Source: an uncultured Verrucomicrobiales bacterium (GTDB taxonomy: Bacteria > Verrucomicrobiota > Verrucomicrobiia > Verrucomicrobiales > Akkermansiaceae). From it: a stretch of DNA of 51,943 nucleotides. Below, one piece after another: positions 11,340-20,882 of the stretch. The stretch lies in the NCBI GenBank assembly GCA_938008215.1, contig CALLLS010000007.1, forward strand, positions 1 through 51,943, in the 5' to 3' direction. Under the pieces are notes generated by a model. That model was not told the DNA's origin and did no database searches. It was given only the letters and a program-made list of their open reading frames with translations. A program made the position numbers and the translations under genes. How positions within the stretch are numbered: position 1 is the stretch's first letter; the number at the start of each line of letters is the position of its first letter.

Positions 11340-13334
11340 CTAAATAGTATAACTTTCTGAGATCATCTTACTTGCTCTTTCTAGCCCTTGGAAAAGTACT
11401 TTTAGGACTATCGGCTTTGTTAAATAGTCATCCATGCCAACTCGATAGGCTCGCGCTCTTTCATCAGTTAGAGCGTTAGCTGTAAGCCCCATGATCACGG
11501 GCTGACGGGGCAACTTTAATACACGTATCGCTTCCGTAGCTTGATAACCGTCCATTTTAGGCATTTGGATGTCCATGAGTATAATATCTGGCTGCTCCTT
11601 CTTCACATACGCTACCGCCATTTCTCCGTCCTCAACGTATTCGGCTTCTATCCCAATCCGCTTTAACATTAGCTGCACCAAGCGTTGATTAATGGCATTA
11701 TCTTCCACCACTAGGACGCGATATGGGAAAGAATCAAAAAACAAGCTCTCCTCGGTGTCTTTAGTGGATGTTTGTTGCTCTTGCTCAGGTTCAATACCCA
11801 GATCACTCAGTAAGCGAAGTAGATCAGCGCGTCTCAGCGGTTTAGTGGCCGTTAGAGTATGCGGAAGCTCAACCCCTGATAAAGGAATAGACGAAATCAA
11901 AAGCGCAGGCACAGTGCGCCCCGCCTCTTGCGCAATAGCCGCCACTTTTTTAATCAATTCCGCTCCCTGCATATCAGGCATTTCTTGATCACTGATCAAA
12001 AGGTCAGGGAGTCCCTCTATCTCTATTTCTTTTAGAAGAGTAATTGGACTCCTAAACGGCATCGTCTCCGCTCTCAAATGAGAGAGTTGTCTCTCCAGAA
12101 TCTTGAGATTCGTTTCATTATCATCCACAAACATCACGCGCTTTCCTTCTATCCATCCCACGTTCTGTTTCTTCGCTGCTTCTGGTTTCTTAAGCTCCAC
12201 CTCAGGTAGCGTAAAGGTAAAACTGAACACTGAGCCTACTCCAAGCTCACTTTCTGCCCAAATCTCTCCGCCAAAATATGTCACTATCTTCTCTGAAATA
12301 GCCAGCCCCAAACCCGTTCCTCCTTGCGTTCTAAGCTCTGCTGAATTTGCCTGGTAAAACACCTGAAATAAGCGCTCTAGCTCCTCCTCATGAATACCTA
12401 AGCCCGTATCTTTCACGCGCACTAGCCAGTCTCCTTTTCGATTCTTAAGGTTATTACGTTTCACCTCCACGACGATCTCACCCTCTTCCGTAAACTTGGA
12501 CGCATTTCCTATTAAATTCGTCACCACCTGCTTGAATCGCGTCTCGTCTCCTAAAAAATAATGCTCCCCCGCCACACGCAGATCAAAAAGAAGGCTCACT
12601 TTCTTCTGAGAAACCACATAGCGCAACATATCAATGCTGTCCTCAATTGCGCTATTTAGTGAAAAGGGCTTCTCCTCGAACTGCATCTCTCCCGCCTCGA
12701 TTTTGCTATAGTCTAAAATACCATCGATTAAGGAAAGTAAGGTTTCCCCACAGGTTTGAATGGTCTCCACATACTCTCGCTGATCATGTGTTAAGTCTGT
12801 TCCCACCATTAATTCCGCCATCCCGATCACTCCATTCAGCGGAGTCCGAATCTCGTGACTCATCGCCGCCAAAAAGCTAGACTTCGCCTCACTCGCCGCA
12901 TCCGCTTTCACCCGGAGCTCTACCGCCAGCGCACGCCCTTGCTCGGTTTCATTAACCAATCCATGCCATGTATTAGCAAGATCACGAAACTGACCGACAA
13001 GTCCCTTCATCCCTCGCTCACCCTCTTTCGCGGCATTGATTTGATCGGGATAGGACTCCATCAAACCCTCCATTTGCTCATGCATTAGAGCCAAAGCCTC
13101 TTCCATATCCACATTCACAGCCTTCATCTGCCCCAGAGCCTCATTTGCCTCCTCCGTGCTTATATAAAGAGCGCGATTCAGACGATCATGTTGAGTCTCA
13201 AATTGATCGTAGCGATCACTCACCTCTCCTAGAAAACTAGACCACTCTTCCTCGCTAGGAACGCGAACCGCACCTTCAGAACAAAAGCCGGCGCGCTTCA
13301 GCTGTATACGCAAAAGTGGGTTCATCTTATCCAT
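11340..13334 (-). CDS. Soluble hybrid sensor histidine kinase with two receiver domains
   Basis: The protein is about 664 aa from the ATG at 13334, 4 nt after the stop of the FIST gene; an ATG at 13358 would overlap that gene. There are no membrane helices. A helical N-terminal region (MNPLLRIQLKRAGF, then heptad-rich to about 145) precedes the HisKA domain with AAMSHEIRTPLNG (His near 160). The HATPase motifs are NLIGNASKF, KDTGLGI and GGTGLGLAIS. Two receivers follow: the first with FVDDNETN and ISDQEMP, the second with VVEDNAINQ and LMDIQMPKMDG. Both have an Asp phosphate acceptor and a conserved Lys. No output domain or HPt is present. The upstream FIST protein is the natural input module. 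Confidence 0.92.
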   Translation of the reverse strand: MDKMNPLLRIQLKRAGFCSEGAVRVPSEEEWSSFLGEVSDRYDQFETQHDRLNRALYISTEEANEALGQMKAVNVDMEEALALMHEQMEGLMESYPDQINAAKEGERGMKGLVGQFRDLANTWHGLVNETEQGRALAVELRVKADAASEAKSSFLAAMSHEIRTPLNGVIGMAELMVGTDLTHDQREYVETIQTCGETLLSLIDGILDYSKIEAGEMQFEEKPFSLNSAIEDSIDMLRYVVSQKKVSLLFDLRVAGEHYFLGDETRFKQVVTNLIGNASKFTEEGEIVVEVKRNNLKNRKGDWLVRVKDTGLGIHEEELERLFQVFYQANSAELRTQGGTGLGLAISEKIVTYFGGEIWAESELGVGSVFSFTFTLPEVELKKPEAAKKQNVGWIEGKRVMFVDDNETNLKILERQLSHLRAETMPFRSPITLLKEIEIEGLPDLLISDQEMPDMQGAELIKKVAAIAQEAGRTVPALLISSIPLSGVELPHTLTATKPLRRADLLRLLSDLGIEPEQEQQTSTKDTEESLFFDSFPYRVLVVEDNAINQRLVQLMLKRIGIEAEYVEDGEMAVAYVKKEQPDIILMDIQMPKMDGYQATEAIRVLKLPRQPVIMGLTANALTDERARAYRVGMDDYLTKPIVLKVLFQGLERASKMISESYTI

Positions 13335-13338
13335 CTTT

Positions 13339-14484
13339 TTAAGCGATAGACTCTTCAAAAAAGACGACTGTCATTGTCTGATTGTGAAGATCAAACCCTA
13401 GCCCGTTGCCACTTGGTCCAATCTCTCCGTAAGAATGAAAGCCACATAAAACAGCACCAGCGGGAAGCTCTTCCTTTACCGCTTCCACCTCTAGATCGGT
13501 ATAGTGTCCCATTGCTAACTTTCGACCCACACAGCTAATACACAGCGCACCCTGCGCGTCCTTCACTTTCTCTCCCGCTTTATTAGCCGCTTCTCTTGCG
13601 CCTTCCACTAAATAGCGATAATCCGCATTCATTAATCGAGCAGTACTCCCCTCTGGAACATCCCCTGCAAAGGTCAGAGTCCTCGCCTCTTCATCTACCG
13701 CTAAGAGCGTCCGAATAACCGAATCCTTCCAGCCTTCTAGATGAACCTCTAAGGGATATAATAATCCCGAGAACGGCAGCTGTTTTGCCTCCTCACCCAA
13801 ATAGGCAGAATACACTCCCAGAGCTGGCTGCCCATCGAGTTCATGCACCACATTGTGAACAGATTTCGTGACTTTACGGAACGCACCAAAAGGCTTCCAT
13901 CCCGCCACCGAAGCCGAATGTGAATGAAAATTCTTACCGTAGAACCCTACAGCCACGATCGAGTTCTCTAACACCTTACCGTCCGCCACAACTAAGGTCT
14001 TCACAAAATCCGCTCCATCCCCAGCTAACCCACCAGAGAAATCACAGCAACCATTTAAAGACTCAGACAATCCCTCCACCAATAAGCTTCCATTCACGGT
14101 TAGCCCATCTGCAAAAACCATCACATAGCTTAAATCTTCATCCAAAGCCTTTAGCTCCTCTGCAATCCGCATTCCACCTGCGCGCGAATCCTTCTCCTCG
14201 CTCGCATCAAACGACCTTGTATGCAGAGCTGTTTTCTCCAAGTGTAAAAAAGTCAGCACTGCAGACTCACCTAAAGCTTGCTCCCCCGCTATCTCTCCCG
14301 CACTTGAACACCCCACAATGGAAGTTCCTTTCGGACAAGCTTCCCCAACGCGACTCATAAAGCCCTCGTCCTCAAGCCACTCACGTGGGGCAAAAACGAG
14401 TAAAAGGTCAGCACTACCACCTTCCGCTTGAAATGGCTCGATCTTATCCGAAAGACTCGCTATGATCGATTGCTCAATGTTCAT
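13339..14484 (-). CDS. FIST-domain sensory protein
   Basis: The protein is about 381 aa from the ATG at 14484 (MNIEQSIIAS). An earlier ATG at 14523 would add 13 unlikely residues. FIST_N covers the first half, with PKGTSIVGCSSAGEIAGEQ near residues 43-61 and the central DFSGGLAGDG motif. FIST_C covers the second half, with AVLCGFHSYGEIGPSGNG near the end, the typical C-terminal signature. FIST proteins are thought to bind small ligands, possibly amino acids, in the cytoplasm and pass the signal to kinases or cyclases. Here the gene is directly upstream of a hybrid kinase without its own sensor domain, 4 nt away, so the two probably act as one two-part sensor. The ligand is unknown. Confidence 0.9.
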   Translation of the reverse strand: MNIEQSIIASLSDKIEPFQAEGGSADLLLVFAPREWLEDEGFMSRVGEACPKGTSIVGCSSAGEIAGEQALGESAVLTFLHLEKTALHTRSFDASEEKDSRAGGMRIAEELKALDEDLSYVMVFADGLTVNGSLLVEGLSESLNGCCDFSGGLAGDGADFVKTLVVADGKVLENSIVAVGFYGKNFHSHSASVAGWKPFGAFRKVTKSVHNVVHELDGQPALGVYSAYLGEEAKQLPFSGLLYPLEVHLEGWKDSVIRTLLAVDEEARTLTFAGDVPEGSTARLMNADYRYLVEGAREAANKAGEKVKDAQGALCISCVGRKLAMGHYTDLEVEAVKEELPAGAVLCGFHSYGEIGPSGNGLGFDLHNQTMTVVFFEESIA

Positions 14485-14773
14485 AATTTCTTTTTCCCAT
14501 AAACAGAAAGAAATGCAAACCACAAAAAATCATCTCTACAGCCCATGCCTCCGCAGGCGTCACTTTAATATCAAAAGAAACCGAAAAGGTTCATTACTTT
14601 CTTGTTTCCAGTTCATGAAATCGATTCCGAGTTTTACCCCAAGCCTTAGAGAGGGAAAATTATTTACACTTCGCTCAGTGTTACTACAATCAACTATAAG
14701 TGTAAGAACACACTATCAAAGTCAGAGCTACCTCTCTGCATATAAGTGAGTAACTTTTGCGTTCTATTAAAAT

Positions 14774-15019: not shown

Positions 15020-15074
15020 ATTACGAGAGCGAATGAGCGTTTGACGAATATTTTAGCACATTCTATATTGTAAA

Positions 15075-17783
15075 GTGCTAGCTAAATCTCGCCACCTCAA
15101 GGGAACATTAAAATTTGATCCTAAGACTCTTCATTTTGAGGAGATCGGTTTGTATTTGGATGGGCATCGTCCGAAGCCTTTGGCATTTGTATCGCACGCG
15201 CATGCAGACCACTTTGCGCCGCATGAGAAGATCATCTGTAGTAAGGCGACGGCTTACCTCTTGAAGAAAAGATTTCGAGTAGATCCTTCTCAGATGGTAG
15301 GCTTAGACTGGGATTCTCCTTATGAAATAGACGATCACACAATCCGACTTTTCCCAGCGGGTCACATTGCAGGGTCAGCTATGATTTTGATCACGAAAGA
15401 TGGCGAAAGTCTCCTCTATACGGGTGACTTCAAGATGAGGGAATCTTTGACCTCGGAGTCCCCTATTTTTCCAAAGGCAGATATATTGGTGATGGAAACA
15501 ACCTTTGGTCTACCACATTTTAAGTTCCCTCCGGCGGAGGTCATTCATCGGGAATTAGTAGAATTTGCGGAGGCTTCACTGGCGGATGACTGCGCGCCCA
15601 TCGTATTAGGTTACTCTCTCGGAAAAGCGCAAGAGGCTCATGCGATCTTAGCGGAAGCAGGAATCCCTGTGGTACTCCACCGCACCGTCTATGAAATGGC
15701 GAAAGCCTTCAATACCCTCGATATTTACCCATTGCCAGAACCTAAGCGGATGGAAAAGAAAATCCCAGAGGGACACGTCCTTATTGCGCCGCCGAACATG
15801 ATTCGCTCCAGAGCACTCAGAACAATCGGAAAAAAGCGCTCAGTGATGCTCACGGGCTGGGCACTGAATCCAAGCGCGATTTACCGCTACCAGACCGACG
15901 AAGTCATCTGCTTATCGGATCATGCAGACTATTCTGGATTACTAGAGGCGGTGGAAAAAGTAGATCCTGCTCTCGTGTATACCCTTCATGGCTCCACCAG
16001 AGAATTCGCAGCGGATCTGAGAGCGAAAGGACGCGAAGCATGGTCGATCTATGGCGACGACCAACTAGAATTGCTCTCTAAAAATTCACTCTCCCAAGAC
16101 GACACTATTGCGCAAGAGGTTGAAAGACCCGTTTGCCAGGTGTCAGAGCTTTCAGATTTGTTAGAGCAACTTCAACAGAATGGATCACGTTTGAAGAAGA
16201 TCGAGTTACTCTCTGCATTCCTCAAACCATTGAGTGAGTCAGACCTTGTTATCGTATTGAATTGGCTGAGAGAAACACGAATCAATCGCCTCGGTTCATC
16301 GATCATCAAGCAAGGGATTTTACAAGCCGCAGGGCAGCCCCTCGCGAGGTATAAAACGATCTCCGCGCAACAGAACGATTCCGCTCGCACGGGACGTATC
16401 ATGCTCGAGCTCGCAACGCTTGATCCCCAACCATATTCTTATGCTGAAATCTATGATGAATTTTCTATGATGAATCAGACATCTGTACAGCTAAAAAAAG
16501 TGAGATTGCTTACCGCTCTGCTGAAACGGAATCATCCACGAGAAGGAGAGACGATCATCCGTCTAGCGAGTGGCGGGATTCGTGCAGGTGTAAAGGATGG
16601 ATTACTAGAAGACGCTATTTCTAAAGCCTACGGAGTGAAAGCAACGGAGCTGAGACGTGCGCACATGCTGACTGGAAACCTTGCCGAGACCGCTATTTTA
16701 GCTATGAATTATGAGCTGGATTCCGCGAGATTAGAGGTCGGCACCGCGATCAAGCCAATGCTCGCTTCACCCGCGACGGATGTGGAAAAGATTCTCGATT
16801 GGCATGAGAAACTAGAGACGGATGCTCCGCTTTGGGTGGAAGAGAAGTATGATGGGATCCGAGCTCAGCTTCACGTGTGTAACAACGAGGCGCATCTCTA
16901 CTCTCGCGACTTAAAACCGCTCGATGAGCAATTCCCTGAACTCATCACGGCAGCCAAATCTCTGTCACCGTGTATTCTAGACGGCGAGATTATCGCCTTC
17001 ATGCCTGGGGCGGACGCTAAGAAACTCACCTTTAATGATATTCAAAAGCGGTTAGGACGGAAGAATGCCTCGCTCGCTCAAGGAGATCTTTTTGGTGGTC
17101 CCTCCGTGCCCGTTTCATTTGTCGCTTTTGACTGTTTCTGGACTGATGCTTCAAAAGGCAACCTGTTCGAGCAGCCTCTGACTGAGCGTAGGAATGCCCT
17201 CGAAAATCTGGGCTTAAAACATCCCTTCCAATGTATCGGGCTTCAGAGAATTGACCCCGCTAACCCTGACCAACTAGAAGCAGCATTTAAGTCAGCCCTG
17301 AAAGACGATAATGAGGGGCTGATTCTGAAGGATAACCGCACCCCATACCAACCTGGGAGAAGAGGCAAGGCATGGATGAAGCTGAAGGGCGTGATGCCGA
17401 CGCTGGACTGCATCGTGATCGCGGCTCAACAAGGTCACGGAAAGCGCGCGGGGGTGCTCTCGGATTACACTTTTGCGATCCGAGATGAGGAGACGGGTGA
17501 TCTAGTAACTCTCGGAAAAGCTTACAGCGGACTCACAGATGAGGAGATAGAGGAACTCACGGTGCACTTTGAGCGCACTACAATCGGAAGACCACAGCGA
17601 AAAGTCCGCGAGGTGACTCCTGATATCGTGCTTGAAATCGCCTTTGATAAGATCTCCCTTTCCAAGCGACACAACTCAGGTTTGGCACTGAGATTTCCCC
17701 GAATCAAAGCTATTCGCCGAGACAAGACCATCGATGATATTGATACTCTAGCGACAGCTCACAGCCTTGTCCGCAATAAATAA
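15075..17783 (+). CDS. Fused ligase-associated exonuclease (MBL/beta-CASP) and ATP-dependent DNA ligase
   Basis: The 902-aa protein starts at a GTG at 15075. Residues 1-340 are a metallo-beta-lactamase/beta-CASP nuclease: H41-x-H43-x-D45-H46 (SHAHADHF), then PAGHIAGSAMI, YTGDFKM, and a C-terminal LSDHADYSGL with VYTLHG. A linker follows. The ligase has an N-terminal helical domain (about 360-555), the adenylation domain with nucleophile Lys591 in EEKYDGIRAQ, then DGEIIAF, FVAFDCFW and NEGLILKDN, and an OB fold with GKAWMKLKGVMPTLDC. In Pseudomonas putida and others, exonuclease and ligase are separate genes in a cluster with an Lhr-core helicase and a phosphoesterase. Here they form one chain. 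Both active-site sets look intact, so both activities are expected. Confidence 0.94.
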   Translation: MLAKSRHLKGTLKFDPKTLHFEEIGLYLDGHRPKPLAFVSHAHADHFAPHEKIICSKATAYLLKKRFRVDPSQMVGLDWDSPYEIDDHTIRLFPAGHIAGSAMILITKDGESLLYTGDFKMRESLTSESPIFPKADILVMETTFGLPHFKFPPAEVIHRELVEFAEASLADDCAPIVLGYSLGKAQEAHAILAEAGIPVVLHRTVYEMAKAFNTLDIYPLPEPKRMEKKIPEGHVLIAPPNMIRSRALRTIGKKRSVMLTGWALNPSAIYRYQTDEVICLSDHADYSGLLEAVEKVDPALVYTLHGSTREFAADLRAKGREAWSIYGDDQLELLSKNSLSQDDTIAQEVERPVCQVSELSDLLEQLQQNGSRLKKIELLSAFLKPLSESDLVIVLNWLRETRINRLGSSIIKQGILQAAGQPLARYKTISAQQNDSARTGRIMLELATLDPQPYSYAEIYDEFSMMNQTSVQLKKVRLLTALLKRNHPREGETIIRLASGGIRAGVKDGLLEDAISKAYGVKATELRRAHMLTGNLAETAILAMNYELDSARLEVGTAIKPMLASPATDVEKILDWHEKLETDAPLWVEEKYDGIRAQLHVCNNEAHLYSRDLKPLDEQFPELITAAKSLSPCILDGEIIAFMPGADAKKLTFNDIQKRLGRKNASLAQGDLFGGPSVPVSFVAFDCFWTDASKGNLFEQPLTERRNALENLGLKHPFQCIGLQRIDPANPDQLEAAFKSALKDDNEGLILKDNRTPYQPGRRGKAWMKLKGVMPTLDCIVIAAQQGHGKRAGVLSDYTFAIRDEETGDLVTLGKAYSGLTDEEIEELTVHFERTTIGRPQRKVREVTPDIVLEIAFDKISLSKRHNSGLALRFPRIKAIRRDKTIDDIDTLATAHSLVRNK

Positions 17784-17784
17784 G

Positions 17785-20232
17785 ATGCACCAAGCGCTCA
17801 CAGATTGGATGAAGCAAAAGAAGTGGAAGCCCTTCCAATTCCAAAAGGATACGTGGGAAAGTTTCAGGCAGGGAAACTCTGGCGTCCTCCATGCTCCTAC
17901 GGGATTCGGGAAAACTCTAGCGGTCTATCTCGGACCACTCTCTGAGTCTCTAGAGGAACACGGCACGGAACTAAACGATAAGGAATCGAAAGCCCTTGGT
18001 TGCCAAATTATTTGGCTGACTCCCCTTCGCGCCCTCGCAAATGATACTCTGAACGCGCTACAAGAGCCCGTGAAGGATCTAGGTCTGAATCTCCGTGTGG
18101 ATGCACGAACGGGTGACACGAGTTCTTATAGGAAAGCCAAGCTGAGGGAACAATTCCCTTACTGCTTGGTAACGACTCCTGAATCACTATCATTACTGCT
18201 TACCTATCCAGATACCAAAGAGAAACTTGCCAATGTAAAGTGTGTGATAATCGACGAATGGCATGAGTTAATAGGCAATAAACGAGGAGTTCAGACAGAG
18301 CTGGTATTGACCCGACTGAGGCATTGGAATCCAAAAATACGGACGTGGGCACTCTCTGCAACTCTCGGAAATATTGATGAAGCGATTTTACCACTCAAAC
18401 CAGCGGGAAGTGAAACTGGATTTGATACCATTACCGCTGACTTGAAGAAGAAAATGGTGATCAATACCTTAATCCCAAAACGCATGGAATCCTTCCCGTG
18501 GTCAGGACATATTGGGACACGATTAGCGGCGGACGTTTGTAAGATATTAGAGAAAAAAGGTACCACGCTCCTCTTCACAAACACACGAGCGCAGACCGAA
18601 ATCTGGTATCAAGAAATATTGAAGCGGAAGCCAGACTGGGCAGAACAGGTCGCTATTCACCATGGCTCATTGAGCAAGCAAGATCGCGCGCAAGTAGAGG
18701 AGAACTTGAAGGTGGGTAATGTGCGTTGTGTCGTCTGCACCTCGTCCTTGGATTTGGGGATCGATTTCTCTCCCGTGGATCAGGTCATCCAAGTGGGATC
18801 CCCAAAAGGGATTACGAGACTGATTCAACGCGCGGGAAGATCAGGGCATAGACCTGGCCAGACATCTCGGATTACTTGTGTCCCTACGAATGCTCTAGAG
18901 CTAGTAGAGTTCGCAGCGGCGCGTGATTCTTGGGAAAAGTCTGAGATCGAATCACGGCAACTCTTAGAAAAACCACTCGATGTGCTTGTCCAGCACTTAG
19001 TGACGCTTGTGATTGGTGAACCGATGAGCGCGGCGAAGTTAAAAAAAGAGATCCTCACCAGCTATACTTATAGAAATATCACCGCCACAGAATGGAAGTG
19101 GGCGATCGACTTCATCACGAATGGAGGTGCGCTCGCCGCCTATCCACAATATGAGAAAGCCAAATTGGTGATGGGGAAGCTCACCGTCGCGGATAAGCGG
19201 ATCATTCAGTTGCATCGTATGAATATCGGAACGATCACCTCTGACTCAGCCATCCTGATCAAGTATGTGAATGGACATTATCTGGGAACGATTGAAGAAA
19301 ATTTCATCACTAAATTAAAGCCTGGCAAGCAATTCATCTTTGCGGGGAAGCGACTAGAACTCGTCAGATTTCACAAGCTCACCGCCACCGTTAGAAACGC
19401 TAAAACGAAACTAAAAGGCGACGTCCCTTCATGGAATGGAGGAAGAATGCCACTCTCCTCTGAGCTCGCCCACGCCGTGGCAAGCAAGATCCACACCTCA
19501 GATGAGAGTCCCGAGATGAAAGCCGTTCTTCCCATCTTGAGCATTCAGTCTAAGTGGTCCGTTCTTCCGAGCACAGAATCACTCCTCATAGAGCACACAC
19601 GCTCCAGAGAAGGAGAGCACCTTTTTTTCTATCCCTTCGCGGGACGATTAGTGCATGAAGGATTGGCGGCATTGGTCGCCTACCGAATGACGCGAGAAAT
19701 GGCTGACTCCGTGCACGTCACGCAGAATGATTACGGCTTTTCACTGACCGCGCGCTCGGGCTTACATCTCGATGAAAACTCGATCAGGGAGAGCTTATCC
19801 ACTGAGAATCTCATTGAAGATCTGCAGAAATGTATGAATACCGCAGAGCTCGCTAGAAGGCAGTTCCGCGAGGTGGCTCGCGTAGCGGGATTGATCGTGC
19901 CGCAGCTTCCAGGGAGGCATCGCAAAAGTAGGGATCTACAAGTTTCCGCAAAATTACTCTATGAAGTCTTCCAACGCTACGATGCCGATAACCTACTAAT
20001 CAAACAAGCGAGCGATGAAATACTCACCAGACAGTTAGAGGTGAATCGCCTCAGGAAAACACTGGCTGAGATAGCCAATAAGCCACTAGAATTAAAAGAA
20101 ACAGAGCGACTCACCCCGATGGCGTTTCCTCTCTGGGCGGATCGTCTTTCTGCTTACTTGCCTGCAGGAGATGCGGTCACTAGATTAGAAAAAATGCTCG
20201 CTCGCTTACAAAAAGAATCCGCCTCTGAGTAA
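17785..20232 (+). CDS. Ligase-associated Lhr-core DEXH-box DNA helicase
   Basis: The protein is about 815 aa from the ATG at 17785, which begins 1 nt after the ligase stop. A TTG at 17767 would overlap the ligase gene. Motif I is APTGFGKT (residues 37-44), motif II is DEWHEL, motif III is ALSATLGN. The second RecA domain has LLFTNTRAQTE and a motif VI of RLIQRAGRSGHRPG. A winged helix and the Lhr-specific beta-barrel region follow. It lacks the long C-terminal extension of full-length Lhr. Lhr-core proteins are 3'-to-5' ssDNA translocases and helicases that unwind RNA-DNA and DNA duplexes in repair. Its position between the ligase fusion and the phosphoesterase is that of the four-enzyme ligase-associated repair cluster. 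Confidence 0.93.
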   Translation: MHQALTDWMKQKKWKPFQFQKDTWESFRQGNSGVLHAPTGFGKTLAVYLGPLSESLEEHGTELNDKESKALGCQIIWLTPLRALANDTLNALQEPVKDLGLNLRVDARTGDTSSYRKAKLREQFPYCLVTTPESLSLLLTYPDTKEKLANVKCVIIDEWHELIGNKRGVQTELVLTRLRHWNPKIRTWALSATLGNIDEAILPLKPAGSETGFDTITADLKKKMVINTLIPKRMESFPWSGHIGTRLAADVCKILEKKGTTLLFTNTRAQTEIWYQEILKRKPDWAEQVAIHHGSLSKQDRAQVEENLKVGNVRCVVCTSSLDLGIDFSPVDQVIQVGSPKGITRLIQRAGRSGHRPGQTSRITCVPTNALELVEFAAARDSWEKSEIESRQLLEKPLDVLVQHLVTLVIGEPMSAAKLKKEILTSYTYRNITATEWKWAIDFITNGGALAAYPQYEKAKLVMGKLTVADKRIIQLHRMNIGTITSDSAILIKYVNGHYLGTIEENFITKLKPGKQFIFAGKRLELVRFHKLTATVRNAKTKLKGDVPSWNGGRMPLSSELAHAVASKIHTSDESPEMKAVLPILSIQSKWSVLPSTESLLIEHTRSREGEHLFFYPFAGRLVHEGLAALVAYRMTREMADSVHVTQNDYGFSLTARSGLHLDENSIRESLSTENLIEDLQKCMNTAELARRQFREVARVAGLIVPQLPGRHRKSRDLQVSAKLLYEVFQRYDADNLLIKQASDEILTRQLEVNRLRKTLAEIANKPLELKETERLTPMAFPLWADRLSAYLPAGDAVTRLEKMLARLQKESASE

Positions 20233-20882
20233 TGACCATTCATTTAGGAAAAACTCCTGTCACGCTCTTGCCTGAGTTCGGCGCCCTTTTACCCAGAACG
20301 GGAACGCTAGTGCTGGCAGATATCCATCTCGGAAAATCCGCCACCTTTCGGGCGAGAGGACTGCCTGTGCCAGAAGGAGACACCACGGATGATCTGGGAA
20401 GAATCGACTCCATGATTAACACCTATGAGGTGAAACAGCTCGTGATCGCTGGTGACATGGTTCATGCCTCAGACGGGCTCACCAAATACACTCTTGAGAG
20501 CATACGATCTTGGTTAGAGAGTCTATCAATTCCCATGGTGCTAACCGAAGGAAATCATGATCGGAAATCCTTCCTTCCGGCGTTAAAGTTAGATCGAGTA
20601 AAATTTATCTCAGCAGACGGAATCCACATCACGCATGAACCGAAGGATCTCCCGAAAGAGACACCAGGCATCGCTGGGCACCTTCATCCGTCATACACGC
20701 TCAAAGATCGCTCCAAAGTGGGGATAAAGCTAAAGGGCTACCACCTATGCTACCCTCACCACTTGGTATTACCCGCATTTTCCCAATTCACAGGAACGCA
20801 TCCTATTTCTCCTTCTATAGGGGATAAGTTCTTCTCAGTGACTGAGAACCAGCTTCACGAGATTCCACTAAAGCTTGTTTAG
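20232..20882 (+). CDS. pdeM: Ligase-associated metallophosphoesterase (PdeM-type nuclease)
   Basis: The 216-aa protein overlaps the helicase stop by one base (TAATG), so translation is probably coupled. The calcineurin-like metal motifs are in order: LADIHLGK, IAGDMVH, EGNHDRK, GIHITHEP and GIAGHLHP. This is the layout of the bacterial ligase-associated phosphoesterases, which in P. putida act as manganese-dependent DNA nucleases. It completes the repair operon exonuclease-ligase / Lhr-core / phosphoesterase. The start is a simple ATG. There is no signal peptide, so it acts in the cytoplasm. Confidence 0.93.
   Translation: MTIHLGKTPVTLLPEFGALLPRTGTLVLADIHLGKSATFRARGLPVPEGDTTDDLGRIDSMINTYEVKQLVIAGDMVHASDGLTKYTLESIRSWLESLSIPMVLTEGNHDRKSFLPALKLDRVKFISADGIHITHEPKDLPKETPGIAGHLHPSYTLKDRSKVGIKLKGYHLCYPHHLVLPAFSQFTGTHPISPSIGDKFFSVTENQLHEIPLKLV

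Follow-up and report, generated by a model that had tools for sequence, protein, structure and literature searches.

The three genes at positions 15075 to 20882 on the forward strand of the window (the whole stretch of 51,943 nucleotides analyzed here) encode an exonuclease fused to an ATP-dependent DNA ligase, an Lhr-Core helicase, and a PdeM-type metallophosphoesterase. With a probability of roughly 0.7, they can be interpreted as the Verrucomicrobiota form of the ligase-associated repair cluster, in which a single early fusion put nuclease and ligase on one chain, trimming and sealing would take place on the same end, and, in this genome, all three genes and their promoter would have been acquired horizontally. 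Given the earlier reports from Opitutus terrae and from Antarctic samples (see below), the fusion as such is already known; what is new here is its history of single origin and decay, an apparent swap of Lhr partners, and the probable transfer of the operon as a cassette, each of which is graded below.

The fused protein and its operon

The 902-aa fused protein is encoded by a continuous open reading frame (15075..17783, forward strand) that runs from GTG to TAA, and its placement by NCBIfam, Pfam, and motif alignment bears out the original prediction that both enzymes form one chain. The start codon GTG 15075 is supported by the presence of ATG at the aligned place in the relative G289. The N-terminal MBL/beta-CASP exonuclease domain (residues 12 to 323; 15108..16043) is recognized by TIGR04122 and by motif alignment; the C-terminal ligase (residues 359 to 898 by NCBIfam TIGR04120/PRK09247) consists of a DNA-binding domain (residues 357 to 515; 16143..16619; PF04675), a nucleotidyltransferase domain with the nucleophile Lys591 in the motif EEKYDGIR (residues 561 to 771; 16755..17387; PF01068), and an OB-fold domain (residues 792 to 884; 17448..17726; PF04679). 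The joint between the enzymes (residues about 330 to 344; 16062..16106) is predicted to be disordered, with AlphaFold2 pLDDT values below 50, and coincides with alignment gaps, its length varying among the relatives. The protein thus has the architecture of the verrucomicrobial fusions, a single chain with the nuclease ahead of the ligase, and all the catalytic motifs of both enzymes that were checked are intact. The HxHxDH motif at residues 41 to 46 (H41, H43, D45, and H46) and Lys591, whose positions had been correctly predicted, are invariant in 46 of the 46 aligned fused proteins; the same is true of the remaining exonuclease residues H97, D118, E141, H283, and H305, and of D593, E638, E747, K769, K771, R873, and R876 in the ligase. 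An AlphaFold2 model built on a 46-row alignment (mean pLDDT 89, pTM 0.57) has well-formed domains, with no confidence in the relative placement of the two halves. In fold searches, the matches were ATP ligases of archaea and humans, among them ligase IV in entries of its Artemis complex (PDB 3w1b and 3w1g).

The Lhr-Core helicase (815 aa; 17785..20232, forward strand) belongs to the canonical, proteobacterial-like lineage in the tree and most likely starts at ATG 17785, 1 nt past the stop codon of the fusion, with TTG 17767 as a weaker alternative. The PdeM/MPE-type metallophosphoesterase (216 aa; 20232..20882, forward strand), which carries the GNHD and GHLHP motifs, starts within the Lhr stop codon (TAATG), giving a 1-nt overlap, so that the expectation of three overlapping or touching genes held. 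Of the four models that define the cluster (TIGR04120 to TIGR04123), those for Lhr-Core (TIGR04121, 1018 bits against a cut-off of 850) and PdeM (TIGR04123, 169 bits against 150) are exceeded, whereas the exonuclease and the ligase are homologous to the cluster enzymes but fused rather than separate and score below the NCBIfam equivalog cut-offs (193 bits against 325 and 277 against 400, respectively). The fusion therefore represents a divergent branch.

A sigma-70-like promoter, TTGACG-17-TATATT, is predicted at 15041..15069 on the forward strand. Promoter-like sites were about as frequent in the consensus scan as in shuffled sequences, so this match is weak when taken alone; it is kept in G289, where its counterpart consists of TTGACG and TATAAT. 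Because the start codon lies only 5 nt past the end of the -10 element, the arrangement suggests a transcript that is leaderless or nearly so.

No Ku was found in the window genome (93% complete). Of ATP-dependent ligases, the fused protein alone was detected there, and a normal NAD ligase is encoded elsewhere. The pathway is therefore distinct from Ku-LigD end joining.

Phyletic distribution, Lhr partners, and decay of the ligase half

In a scan of a genome collection representing 84,980 species, all of the best 80 loci encode the fused form. These loci carry Verrucomicrobiota labels, except for one contig labeled Betaproteobacteria and one labeled only as "bacterium." They include Chthoniobacter flavus, Verrucomicrobium sp. 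BvORR106, Brevifollis, and Opitutaceae EW11, and the presence of isolates among them excludes chance or an assembly error. The fusion is typical of many Verrucomicrobiota. A fused locus of the verrucomicrobial type, L109, lies on a contig labeled Betaproteobacteria, which is probably mislabeled or misbinned.

In the tree of the exonuclease domain, the fused, truncated, and exonuclease-only verrucomicrobial forms make up one supported clade, distinct from the canonical, separately encoded exonucleases found in proteobacteria and in further families within the phylum, and the truncated and exonuclease-only forms are nested inside it. The simplest reading of this topology is that the fusion arose once in Verrucomicrobiota and that the ligase was lost several times later, while an exonuclease-only group near the base (L046, L047, L050, and L184) could be older than the fusion. 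Of the dating that had been proposed for the fusion, a single origin that fits the exonuclease tree could be obtained; the result of the collection scan applies to its best 80 loci. The fusion event probably consisted in the loss of a stop codon between two adjoining genes, once and early in Verrucomicrobiota. The unfused gene pairs of Sinorhizobium and Phyllobacterium share a reading frame, and 3 to 6 nt lie between the stop codon and the next start, which shows that the step from separate genes to a fusion is short, a matter of one stop codon. No relatives were found on viral contigs, and in the annotated records examined, the plasmid relatives are separate genes. On a plasmid of the haloarchaeon Halocatena marina (L274, 4611-7356), an ATP-dependent ligase precedes an exonuclease-like "mRNA 3'-end processing factor," a pairing in reversed order. 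One genome with the fusion (G292) also encodes a separate canonical exonuclease-ligase pair elsewhere (L256, 4578-7204).

The Pseudomonas putida cluster of Lhr-Core, ligase, exonuclease, and MPE comprises the same four activities as the window operon. The clusters of Comamonas and Ideonella have the same gene order, but their exonuclease and ligase are separate, with a 4-nt overlap, and are about 30% identical to the fused halves. An exonuclease-ligase fusion has been noted in Opitutus terrae (OTER_RS15935; Ejaz and Shuman 2018, cited in PMC10140301) and, as far as it is described there, belongs to the same phylum and has the same order of halves. In the related Opitutaceae examined here, the fusion is followed by Lhr and phosphoesterase genes, as in the window, but this Lhr comes from a distant lineage that shares about 30% identity with that of the window. 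The study of Antarctic Dry Valley metagenomes listed 13 proteins, DV-1-1-Nuc-Lig and 12 others, with the nuclease ahead of the ligase (PMC10140301, 2023). Similarly to the window protein, these combine an N-terminal MBL/RMMBL nuclease with a LigB-type ligase; unlike it, none of the 13 is in an Lhr/phosphoesterase arrangement (PMC10140301). In one of them, activity was demonstrated for the isolated ligase half; its nuclease half proved insoluble, and assays did not extend to the full-length protein (PMC10140301).

According to the Lhr tree, two distant lineages of this helicase occur with the fusion. Lineage A, the canonical one, is found in the family of the window and in G066 and groups with Comamonas, Paraburkholderia, and Ideonella; lineage B, about 30% identical to the Lhr of the window, is found in Opitutaceae, the family coded f2, and G167. 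With two Lhr lineages accompanying one fusion, it thus seems that the fusion persisted and that its helicase partner was replaced. In most genomes, the fusion adjoins neither Lhr nor the phosphoesterase; it adjoins Lhr in Opitutaceae (lineage B), as well as in a minority of genomes from the family of the window (lineage A), where the fusion-Lhr-MPE order is seen in G253, G264, and G289, and a divergent arrangement in G281 and G338. The idea that only the window has Lhr beside the fusion was rejected on account of the same order in G253 and G264 and the divergent one in G281 and G338, and is also contradicted by Opitutaceae, in which the order is present with the other Lhr lineage. The original prediction had further envisaged a machine of up to three chains; with most fused genes unlinked from Lhr and the phosphoesterase, a fixed machine of this kind is not implied by the gene order.

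Within the family of the window, full fusions are encoded in 52 genomes, and the ligase half can be followed through several stages of decay. Forms of 763 to 775 aa have no OB domain and a damaged ligase motif I: in L253 (3823-6111, G348), this motif reads EPEFVGIR, with the nucleophilic Lys replaced by Glu, and in L254 (3877-6201, G344), it reads EPKYRGIR, with Arg at the position of Asp593; the nuclease is intact in both. Forms of 566 to 631 aa (L041, L251, L252, L255, and L263) retain an open frame for the exonuclease and the ligase DNA-binding domain only, the latter being possibly reused as a DNA tether, and exonuclease-only forms comprise about 340 to 400 aa. The nuclease motifs are unbroken in truncated and exonuclease-only forms alike, and this persistence after the loss of the ligase indicates that the nuclease has a ligase-independent role. 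The series, from intact through OB-less with a mutated active site and DNA-binding domain only to nuclease only, constitutes a natural mutant set with which the function of each part, and its possible need for Lhr, can be addressed.

In this family, Lhr is encoded in 47 of the 52 genomes with a full fusion and in 5 of the 43 with truncated or exonuclease-only forms (Fisher test, p about 1e-15 when kinship is ignored). Shared ancestry confounds this association: on the tree, it comes down to 3 well-supported independent comparisons, of which nearly all point the expected way, so that it is non-significant (sign test, p 0.25). The dependence of the ligase half on Lhr is therefore best regarded as suggestive. 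A broader proposal can be offered only tentatively, as less probable than its negation: the fusion would be the bacterial counterpart, on a single chain, of Artemis-ligase IV and would require Lhr to seal, loss of Lhr would lead to stepwise decay of the ligase, with the nuclease kept for a second role that needs no ligase, and Lhr would be swappable between two distant lineages and the promoter-bearing three-gene cassette mobile.

Proposed trimming and sealing on one chain

The following sequence of events can be envisaged. Lhr-Core, which in characterized relatives moves in the 3'-5' direction, would translocate and unwind, exposing the damaged strand, and PdeM, which in P. putida is an Mn-dependent single-strand endonuclease, would incise single strands and so prepare the substrate. 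The SNM1-like nuclease half, for which DNA is the assumed substrate, would trim ends that are damaged or mismatched; the ligase half, tethered through its DNA-binding domain by the short flexible joint, would seal the resulting nick. Through this tether, both steps would stay on one end; in human Ku/DNA-PK end joining, Artemis is similarly docked on the ligase IV DNA-binding domain. Both systems attach an SNM1-type nuclease to an ATP ligase by way of the DNA-binding domain of the latter; however, Artemis and ligase IV are two proteins that act with Ku/DNA-PK, whereas the window protein is one chain in a genome with no Ku found, and the likeness is one of analogy, not membership.

Physical coupling of trimming to sealing is plausible, and a fair deduction from the sequences, since most relatives carry the two active sites intact on a single chain; survival of the exonuclease without a ligase in many lineages, which points to work of its own, limits it. 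That a large group has retained the fusion speaks for sequential action of nuclease and ligase on one end. It is unlikely that the fusion is a mere convenience of co-expression, with the two enzymes having different substrates and gaining nothing from a single chain, or being cleaved apart after synthesis. Such an explanation would agree with the short and variable joint, predicted to be disordered, with the nuclease being kept alone once the ligase is lost, and with the 4-nt overlap that already couples the canonical separate genes, but it leaves unexplained why numerous families have maintained the full fusion and kept both of its active sites invariant; moreover, among the loci examined, no reversion to two complete separate genes of the verrucomicrobial type was found, only ligase loss.

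A different substrate appears rather improbable as well. The nuclease half might target RNA or RNA-DNA junctions, in which case the protein would take out ribonucleotides before sealing instead of trimming damaged DNA ends. The exonuclease has His at beta-CASP motif C (H305), in fused and separate forms alike, and a weak RMMBL match, features that are often tied to RNA-acting enzymes. The Antarctic fused members were likewise flagged through their RMMBL domain (PMC10140301). Yet the solved structures nearest to the nuclease half by sequence are those of the DNA nucleases SNM1A and Apollo, and the operon partners belong to DNA-repair families, both of which favor trimming of DNA ends.

Putative transfer of the operon

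The window and a locus of another genus (L244 in G289) have in common a unit at 15040..20881 on the forward strand, with 75% DNA identity. The similarity starts sharply at 15040, includes the promoter, and stops at 20881; none was detected in the flanks, about 15 kb or more per side, within 51 kb of G289. Identity between the two sets of proteins is 86% for the fusion, 90% for Lhr, and 74% for PdeM, against 55% for LigA of the same two genomes. Given these values and the unshared flanks, the operon has probably moved as a cassette, its three genes and promoter acquired together by horizontal transfer. The GC content of the operon is 0.49, versus 0.447 in the flanks. No inverted or direct repeats of the mobile-element kind flank it, beyond short matches at chance level.

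The close match to G289 could instead reflect slow evolution or misbinned contigs, with no transfer of the operon, as both genomes are multi-contig drafts and the genus codes were assigned automatically. This is very unlikely: slow evolution is hard to reconcile with the gap between LigA and the fusion and Lhr, or with the genus-mate G241, whose Lhr is only 57% identical to that of the window (LigA, 65%), and misbinning would give similarity over whole contigs, whereas these contigs are not similar throughout and the borders are sharp despite the length of the flanks compared. Just upstream of the operon, on the reverse strand (11340-14523), the window encodes a FIST-domain sensor protein whose gene overlaps that of a hybrid histidine kinase with receiver domains.
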